Shown piece after piece: positions 25,612 through 27,046 of a DNA stretch of 64,000 bases. Both the position numbers and the translations under genes were made by a program. Location: contig CP012155.1 of NCBI GenBank assembly GCA_001602415.1, forward strand, positions 2,040,223 to 2,104,222, written 5' to 3'. Source of the stretch: Bacteroidetes bacterium UKL13-3. GTDB taxonomy: Bacteria; Bacteroidota; Bacteroidia; UKL13-3. Numbering within the stretch: position 1 is the first letter of the stretch; each line of letters starts with the position of its first letter. A model generated the notes under the pieces. It saw only the letters and a list, made by a program, of their open reading frames with translations. It searched no databases and was not told the origin of the DNA.

Positions 25612-26085
25612 TCAGTCAACTTCAATTACCTCTTTAGTTACACCGTGGCAACTGCTACACGAACCGTTGCTGGTTTGGGTCGACATTTCTTTAACTTTTC
25701 CATTGTTGCCAACATATACCGGATAAAACCCTCCTTTAAAATCAACTATTTTGGCTGTGTAAAAATTACCTGATTTATCGATGGTTATTTTTCTGAGCAA
25801 TTCACCAGACCGATTTGGTTGAGTCCACAATTCAATAGCTCCCGAAGATTCAGCAACCTTTTTATTATCGTCAAATACTGTTCCAGCCACATACCACCAT
25901 TTCTCCGAAGCTTCATTGGAATTATCGTGATGGCAACTCATACAATCCCGTCCAGCATTATGACTCTTTTCGTTTGCCGTGCTTTCTTCAGCATTCTTCA
26001 TGATATCATCATAATGGCTGCATGATTGCAATACAAAACCTGCTAGCACTATTAGAGGCGCAATTAGGACTATACTTCTTTTCAT
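25612..26085 (-). CDS. diheme c-type cytochrome lipoprotein
   Basis: This 157-residue lipoprotein (lipobox LQSC, Cys22) has two CxxCH sites, CMSCH (48-52) and CSSCH (143-147), so it should bind two c-haems. The middle contains a carboxypeptidase-regulatory-like or Ig-like strand pattern, VAGTVFDDNKKVAESSGAIE, LLRKITIDKSGNFYT. It lies first in the reverse cluster, 74 bases before the monoheme protein. It probably acts as an electron carrier on the periplasmic face; partners and donor are unknown. The large palindrome at 26190-26296 lies directly upstream and could affect its transcript. Confidence 0.85.
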   Translation of the reverse strand: MKRSIVLIAPLIVLAGFVLQSCSHYDDIMKNAEESTANEKSHNAGRDCMSCHHDNSNEASEKWWYVAGTVFDDNKKVAESSGAIELWTQPNRSGELLRKITIDKSGNFYTAKIVDFKGGFYPVYVGNNGKVKEMSTQTSNGSCSSCHGVTKEVIEVD

Positions 26086-26189
26086 ACATCAATAATAAAA
26101 CAATTGTTGTATAGATAACAATCTATAATGATGAGTTGCATCATCTTTTTACAACATATTCATCATTCACAGCACATCTGTTAAACACT

Positions 26190-26296
26190 TCCTCAATATA
26201 GCATAGGGTTTAAATTCGTCATCAAGTTTGAACACGCCCCCAATATAGCATAGGGTTTAAACCCTATGCTATATTGGGGGCTATGCTATATTGAAG
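26190..26296. repeat. 46-bp perfect palindrome with flanking partial copies
   Basis: Bases 26236-26281 are a perfect palindrome centred in GGGTTTAAACCC. Its left 21-mer (26241-26261, CAATATAGCATAGGG plus TTTAAA) is repeated directly at 26194-26214. A third, inverted half-copy (CTATGCTATATTGAAG) follows at 26281-26296. The unit therefore occurs four times, twice in each orientation, within 107 bases. As RNA or single-stranded DNA it would form a very long hairpin. It separates the Mla-like ABC genes from the cytochrome cluster, both on the minus strand. Confidence 0.9.
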
Positions 26297-26317
26297 ATAT
26301 AATGAATGAATGAACAA

Positions 26318-27046
26318 TTAAAATTCAGATGCTTTCATAAAACCAAGCAATTCGGCATTGCCCGAAGAGCGTATTTCATCTTTACGTCCCTCCCACCATT
26401 TTTCGCCCTTGTGAATAAATACAATATTATCACCCATTTCAAACAAACTTTTCATATCGTGAGTGTTGATGATGGTTGTGATATCATACTCCAACGTAAT
26501 TTCTTTAATCAGCTCATCAATTAACCTCGAAGTTATTGGATCGAGACCCGAGTTGGGTTCATCACAAAAAAGATATTTAGGGTTTAAGGCCATAGCACGG
26601 GCAATCCCCACACGTTTTTTCATACCGCCACTGATGGATGATGGGAAGAGTTTATTGACGTTTTCAAGGTTAACACGTTTTAAACAAAAATTCACTCGTT
26701 CAATAACCTCTGCCTGACTCATTTTAGTGAACATGCGCAATGGAAATGCAATATTATCCTCAACATTAAGCGAGTCGAACAACGCTGTTCCTTGGAATAA
26801 CATTCCTATTTCTTGACGGATTTCCTTTTTTTGATTGTAATCCATAGCCACAAAATCGCGCTCACCGTAACTTATTTCACCATTATCAACCTCAATTAAG
26901 CCTACCATACACTTCATCATCACACTTTTTCCACTACCACTAGCACCAATCACAAAATTGCATTGCCCTTTATTAAAATGAGCGGAAACATTTTTTAAAA
27001 CATGCTTCTCGCCAAATGATTTATTGATATTCTGAATGGTAATCAT
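26318..27046 (-). CDS. ABC transporter ATPase of the Mla type
   Basis: This 242-residue ATPase has Walker A GASGSGKS, Q-loop MLFQGTALFDSLNVEDNIAF, signature SISGGMKKRVGIARAMALNP, Walker B YLFCDEPNSGLDP and H-loop TTIINTHDM. DEPNSGLDP and FPLRMFTKMS match the MlaF subgroup. It works with the permease directly downstream in the same reverse transcript order (gap of one base), in retrograde or anterograde phospholipid movement between the membranes. The MCE-domain substrate-binding partner is not seen within the window on either side. The stop lies 22 bases after the palindrome region, so the hairpin may end this transcript. Confidence 0.88.
   Translation of the reverse strand: MITIQNINKSFGEKHVLKNVSAHFNKGQCNFVIGASGSGKSVMMKCMVGLIEVDNGEISYGERDFVAMDYNQKKEIRQEIGMLFQGTALFDSLNVEDNIAFPLRMFTKMSQAEVIERVNFCLKRVNLENVNKLFPSSISGGMKKRVGIARAMALNPKYLFCDEPNSGLDPITSRLIDELIKEITLEYDITTIINTHDMKSLFEMGDNIVFIHKGEKWWEGRKDEIRSSGNAELLGFMKASEF

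Follow-up and report, generated by a model that had tools for sequence, protein, structure and literature searches.

A 46-bp perfect palindrome in Bacteroidetes bacterium UKL13-3 is probably a copy of a REP-like hairpin family that belongs with a subclass 1.2 Y1 transposase

The window (64,000 nucleotides of Bacteroidetes bacterium UKL13-3, the whole stretch that was analysed) contains a gap of 232 bp between two minus-strand genes, named from reading their translations, and this gap holds a perfect palindrome. The features at this locus are:

25612-26085, minus strand: gene for a lipoprotein-like protein with two CxxCH motifs; its start is 151 bp from the palindrome
26191-26214, plus strand: half-copy (left arm plus TTTAAA), read as part of an older, split copy
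26236-26281, no strand assigned: loopless perfect palindrome, a full family copy, with the centre GGGTTTAAACCC and an ATAG foot on both strands
26281-26297, minus strand: inverted outer arm; its pairing partner, 26190-26206, is on the other side of the full copy
26318-27046, minus strand: gene for an MlaF-like ABC ATPase; the palindrome lies 37 bp past its stop codon

The palindrome reads ATAGCATAGGGTTTAAACCCTATGCTAT and consists of two 23-nt arms which are 100% complementary and are separated by 0 nt of spacer, so that the total of 46 bp given by the sequence-only reading is correct. Based on the base composition of the window, 3.8e-9 perfect palindromes of at least 46 bp are expected by chance in 64 kb; the second-longest loopless palindromes of the window have 14 bp. 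The direct copy which had been reported at 26194 is exact: the 21-mer CAATATAGCATAGGGTTTAAA occurs at 26194-26214 and twice within the palindrome, once per strand (genome coordinates of the three exact matches: 2066416, 2066463, 2066478). An inverted half at 26281-26296 had been described as well. It corresponds to an exact inverted 13-nt copy of the arm (26281-26293), while the longer stretch 26281-26297 is complementary to 26190-26206 (17 nt, 94%), so that the palindrome is enclosed. The half-copy starts a 34-nt direct repeat (26181-26214 and 26228-26261, 88%). When folded as a single strand, positions 26180-26310 form one long nested stem, with the full copy between the split arms of another (minus strand: -63.6 kcal/mol, compared to a mean of -24.6 kcal/mol for shuffled sequence). 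Judging from this layout, an older copy appears to have received a second copy within its right arm. An Rfam scan of 25900-26500 returned nine matches, all of them under their own gathering scores.

Homologues of the MlaF-like ATPase from four relatives are 69-82% identical. In a genome from the same genus (G011), the gene which follows this ATPase begins 4 bp after it, compared to the 232-bp gap in the window, and no palindrome was found within 500 nt after the ATPase gene. As the gene order differs by one gene, this indicates a gain or loss of the palindrome but is not a clean empty site.

A genome search with the 21-mer, which the sequence-only reading had proposed as a check, yielded nine forward sites at up to 3 mismatches and thus revealed a family, not a one-off. 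The opposite arm is in place at eight of the nine sites (the 21-mer half-unit extends just 3 nt into the other arm); the remaining site is the half-copy from the window. The central 12-mer GGGTTTAAACCC occurs 11 times in the genome (control: 0), and every occurrence centres a perfect palindrome of 28-48 bp. A covariance model built from 12 copies, which scores 60.1 bits on each strand of the window palindrome, has 15 genome matches at E < 1e-3. These are its own 12 copies and three new ones:

2145774: perfect palindrome of 42 bp with the centre GGATTTAAATCC
1117954: near-perfect palindrome
276791: weak match

Perfect palindromes of 28-48 bp are thus found at 12 of the 15 sites, the imperfect ones being 1117954, 276791, and 1046702, which is beside a Y1 transposase gene. 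The chance expectation for perfect palindromes of at least 28 bp in the genome is 0.03. Of the 12 aligned copies, 10 have the ATAG foot on both strands; site 1347837 has ACAA, and site 1046702 has one foot only. With respect to mechanically called open reading frames, a stop codon is within 40 bp at 9 of the 15 sites, and one site is located between divergent genes. None of the 15 is inside a clear gene; 276791 overlaps the ends of called open reading frames by a few bases.

As a family-wide signal, GGGTTTAAACCC was rejected. It was found in 20 of 57 other genomes of the family, 1-2 times each, and control matches occurred at a similar level; when 20 such loci were inspected, arms of at least 10 were found in three. 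A literature search (supplementary files and most subscription journals being outside its scope) did not retrieve CCCACGGTTTAAACCGTGGG, returned matches for ACCGTGGGCTA which are unrelated according to their titles, and, in the indexed text, retrieved GGGTTTAAACCC in a match on a virus only.

The two arms of each copy change jointly. In the alignment of the 12 copies, both-sided changes are seen in 15 of the 23 pairs, and none of 500 shuffles reached the observed values. Shifting the partner by one column reduced the paired cells from 88.8% to less than 49%. The six innermost pairs were selected by the search, because 11 of the 12 rows had to contain the 12-mer core; the varying pairs are outside of this core. 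Of 17 arm positions, 0.58 differ on average when both arms are from one copy, and 3.9 when they are from different copies.

Ten Y1_Tnp matches were found in the genome. When about 1.5 kb on each side was checked, the palindrome core was found around only one of them, which is located about 1 Mb from the window:

G000:C1:1046829-1047251, minus strand: Y1/HUH (IS200-like) transposase gene; a perfect palindrome lies directly 5' of it, and a degenerate cluster is found on its 3' side

In this gene, codon 4 is an in-frame TAA, and the copies in this genome may therefore be remnants of past activity. An IS200-like gene (1047438-1047794, plus strand) adjoins it, between the palindromes at 1047278 and 1047909; this is one of three IS200-like genes with an identical score of 137.9 bits, the others being at G000:C1:2537944-2538300 and 2718804-2719160 (both minus strand).

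In an alignment of 19 homologues of the Y1 protein, residues H51, H53, Y111, Q115, H118, and H119 are invariant. The signature of TnpA_Y1 subclass 1.2 is Y---Q--HH according to the available text of PMC6006769, and the protein fits this subclass by its sequence motif. The copy number is low, as it is for subclass 1.2, with one genome match at E <= 1e-10; relatives have 0-9 matches, many of which are distant paralogues. The same paper, in the part accessible, describes subclass 1.2 as generally devoid of the typical terminal IS200 structures. Structures are present at the gene flanks here, in another form, namely as loopless palindromes. The score against the NCBI model for REP-associated transposases (NF047646) is 30.6 bits and thus below its cut-off of 80, while that against the IS200/IS605 model NF033573 (56.1 bits) is just above the cut-off of 55. 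The nearest relatives of known structure are transposases of the IS200/IS605 kind (2a6m from ISHp608, E 4e-8; 2xm3, E 1e-8). A Pfam scan of one Y1 protein revealed no extra domain.

Using the G011 protein as query, we analysed the loci of the best 80 of 573 relatives, the titles of which are mostly from Bacteroidota (exceptions: L176, Caldithrix; L207, Ignavibacterium; L223, uncultured bacterium). Perfect palindromes (arm of at least 10, loop of up to 6) were counted in 300-bp bins out to 3 kb. Among these 80 loci, 56 palindromes are in the bin directly 5' and 34 in the bin directly 3' of the gene match; the other bins have 0-6 each, and there are none within the genes. A palindrome is found within 400 nt of the gene at 59 of these best 80 loci, and on both sides at 16. 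The strict form is absent from this range at the other 21, two of which are also without a half-site. Half-sites matching at least 11 of 13 positions occur near the gene in 74 of the 80 loci, and sites far from the gene occur in 1 of 77; at the loosest setting (10 of 13) the values are 76 of 80 and 33 of 77, which corresponds to 4.0 versus 0.21 per kb. Of the perfect sites near the gene, 40 of 61 are on its 5' side.

The commonest form among the best 80 of 573 loci is CATAGCCCACGGTTTAAACCGTGGGCTATG. Matched variation across loci extends even to the centre (GGTTTAAACC, GAATTAATTC, GGCTTAAGCC, GATTTAAATC). In G011 and G009, the 10-mer GGTTTAAACC is long-armed only beside the Y1 gene. Some loci from Flavobacterium and Pedobacter carry a hairpin of the ordinary type with one tagged foot (TAG-CCCACGGTT-TC-AACCGTGGG-AAA), and at one locus (L195) the units of an array alternate in orientation with a period of 42-45 nt. 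Given these one-foot-tagged hairpins in relatives, the loopless form looks like a hairpin which now has the tag on both feet.

More distant Y1 genes from one genus adjoin palindromes of the same design with other sequence (L087:862-901, a 40-bp perfect palindrome TTTGTCATTTTCGTTGGCTTAAGCCAACGAAAATGACAAA; L088:1422-1451, a related looped form). The longest perfect palindrome which we have seen, 62 bp of CCCATCG-like repeats, is 68 nt 5' of the Y1 match at L174. In G011, a 259-nt direct repeat (L117:523-781 and 1168-1426; spacing 645 nt, 92%), which is a tandem duplication, contains the palindrome together with the beginning of the Y1 gene. Two copies of GGGGAGGGTTTAAACCCTCCCC are 3.5 kb apart in G030 (L146:1007 and L146:4508). 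Genome G056, in which no close relative of the Y1 gene was matched at E <= 1e-10, has two perfect AACCCTTCGAGGGTTTAAACCCTCGAAGGGTT palindromes (L144:2006 and L145:586; arms of 20 and 17), which possibly represent another family.

Copies are also found dispersed in genomes which carry the gene. A 20-mer core was counted in 30 gene-bearing genomes that had been hand-picked from the 80, 25 of them mostly because a palindrome had already been seen beside the gene. Due to this selection, the 24 of 30 positive genomes say nothing on association, and the copy numbers alone are informative: there are up to 15 copies per genome, while the control gave 0 in all 30. The highest numbers are 15 copies on 13 contigs (G471), 11 on 9 contigs (G468), and 8 on 5 contigs (G463); those from G471 are in part recent duplicates. 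The pattern differs from that of a 22-mer survey of 395 genomes from the phylum, for which gene carriage was not recorded. Three of these were positive, one with the copy beside the gene (L228) and two with apparently solo copies (L229, L230; according to about 800 nt of sequence).

We have read 43 dispersed copies, which come from 7 of the 24 positive genomes (G459, G462, and G478 having been left out); locus L278 is omitted from these because it overlaps L277. By contig coordinates, 9 of the 43 are beside the gene, other gene copies being outside this count. Arms of at least 14 bp, and thus past the forced 10 bp, are found in 40 of the 43. In G468, the outer arms vary between copies and match within each copy. 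Many copies form the middle of a larger unit, which consists of AATGGTT-AA-AACCATT, about 15-25 nt, the palindrome, about 15-25 nt, and AACCGTT-TT-AACGGTT. This three-hairpin unit has about 100-110 nt as judged by eye, and the sequences outside differ in several cases. A small flank hairpin (arm of at least 7) is present at 64 of 86 flanks, compared to 2% of shuffled sequence. In the genome of the window it was found at 1 of 24 flanks, which is why we consider that genome to have mostly bare palindromes. G471 also has a longer repeat (TTTTGCCCGAAGACTGAAGT...) in 12 places (L286-L297). The palindrome unit follows directly after it in most of these; other sequence intervenes in L286 and L292.

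A hairpin family is thus present in this genome, its arms change jointly, and the same design is linked to one Y1 gene family in many genomes. The sequence-only reading had listed a mobile hairpin element (REP- or MITE-like) among its options, and this is supported by the 15 sites, two of which flank the Y1 gene, and by the recurrence of the design elsewhere; the copies may thus be mobile. We consider it likely that the window palindrome is a copy of a REP-like hairpin family which belongs with the subclass 1.2 Y1 transposase, and that its arms are matched at the DNA level. The sequences compared revealed neither movement nor cleavage nor a clean empty site.

An element which acts at the RNA level is unlikely. 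The hairpin would then end or protect transcripts after stop codons, its arms would be held by selection for RNA pairing, and the proximity to Y1 genes would be incidental or regulatory. Such an element would account for the 9 of 15 sites within 40 bp of a stop codon, for the very stable fold, and for the excess of near-gene sites on the 5' side, where a leader hairpin could act. However, there is no site of the intrinsic-terminator type (a G+C-rich stem, then a T-run) at 26236-26281, and the sole terminator-like match nearby (26365-26343, minus strand) is within the number expected by chance (mean 1.3). If the arms were matched by selection on an RNA hairpin, G.U would be expected to outnumber A.C on the strand of the gene. 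We used 90 half-defined loopless sites, for which as many as 3 mismatches were allowed; 61 of them are perfect over 13 pairs and 29 have a mismatch. Sites with one or two mismatches contain 13 G.T, 11 A.C, and 11 other mispairs, and thus have no clear G.U preference. The earlier suggestion of a transcription barrier is therefore not upheld at this site as far as the intrinsic-terminator kind is concerned. In addition, an RNA element leaves the association with both sides of the gene (16 of the best 80 of 573 loci) and the dispersed units with defined ends unexplained. Both-sided departures among the 90 half-defined sites number 67, compared to 10.3 expected for independent arms. Together with the mispair balance, this is suggestive of arm-to-arm copying at the DNA level, although with 24 events it is not decisive. 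Single mismatches in loopless copies indicate that the arm correction is incomplete.

Matched arms might also be passive products of replication, that is, quasipalindromes perfected by template switching, with the transposase uninvolved and its gene merely near a hot region. Template switching is known to make hairpin arms and to keep them alike (PMC8794818, PMC8604942, in the text available from both), and outer arms which are copy-specific yet matched are in line with this. We regard this as rather improbable, since a core common to different genomes and the concentration at one gene family call for common descent, and local perfection alone does not suffice for them. It is very improbable that the palindrome is an operator or another binding site for a dimeric protein: twofold symmetry and, in the genome of the window, the conserved centre GGGTTTAAACCC would fit, but an operator needs no outer arms that vary between copies and match within each, and 9 of the 15 sites are just past stop codons. 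An assembly or inversion artefact, which had also been considered by the sequence-only reading, is extremely unlikely, because the design recurs in many independent assemblies, including those of the named isolates Algoriphagus formosus (L160) and Roseivirga echinicomitans (L162), and because the arms covary among 12 sites of the genome.

The closest known counterpart is the REP/BIME system with its RAYT (TnpA_REP) transposases, with which the family shares multiple copies of short extragenic hairpins, some of which adjoin a Y1 HUH gene, and, in relatives, one-foot-tagged forms and the alternating array of L195. From the sequence comparisons, the hairpin family may work like a REP system, with copies that would be mobilised. 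It is a repeated extragenic hairpin of low copy number, with 15 sites, compared to more than 100 copies per genome which are usual for REPs according to the text available from PMC2817692. In contrast to REP/BIME, the loopless form has its foot (ATAG here, TAG in relatives) on both strands and no loop at the centre. GT[AG]G at one foot is absent, and the partner is an IS200-like protein of subclass 1.2 which scores under the NCBI RAYT cut-off; for these two reasons we do not file the family as a GTAG REP. Group 3 REPs from Pseudomonas, Stenotrophomonas, and Marinomonas also have generally perfect stems, but the examples in the accessible part of PMC8266576 have stems of 5-8 bp, an interruption of 3-4 nt, and GTAG on one side, whereas the stems here have 14-24 bp and no loop.

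Other systems resemble the family in part. The protein is kin to IS200/IS605 transposases, which also have hairpins near the gene; here, however, there are dispersed copies which lack the gene, and the main hairpin, found on either side of the gene, is a perfect palindrome. TIRYT genes are Y1 genes flanked by inverted repeats which are sometimes self-complementary and are repeated in the genome (PMC3733652, text seen in part). They belong mainly to subclass 2.1 and have helix-turn-helix domains and the consensus GGGG[AT][CG]A[CG], as given in the available sections of PMC6006769. Neither this consensus nor an extra domain (Pfam, one protein) was seen here. Template-switched quasipalindromes have arms made alike at the DNA level, as in this family, but the cases in the literature available to us are isolated loci, unlike the present family, which is repeated and linked to a transposase gene.

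Our best reading is thus a REP-like and probably mobile hairpin family, the form of which is new in that both strands carry the ATAG foot. Each strand would extrude the same hairpin with the foot 5'-ATAG, and the enzyme could then bind, nick, and transfer either strand when it is single-stranded, for example at a replication fork, by which copies would enter gaps between genes. The arms would be kept alike by copying, either by template switching at the hairpin or by nick-primed synthesis, rather than by selection on an RNA hairpin. A further step is conceivable, though we put it forward tentatively and hold it to be doubtful: that strand asymmetry has been lost, with the hairpins being symmetric, and that one arm is rewritten from the other, either by the HUH enzyme of subclass 1.2 or by a restart of replication as a consequence of its action.

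The palindromes are a candidate DNA partner for a branch of HUH enzymes reported to be generally without typical terminal structures. With many copies and jointly changing arms, they also represent a natural set in which the correction of a palindrome from arm to arm is measurable. Should a symmetric hairpin be the substrate of the enzyme, the question arises of how strand and cleavage site are chosen. If arm rewriting is true, transposition would be the force by which the arms evolve jointly and by which perfect palindromes are maintained in bacterial genomes.
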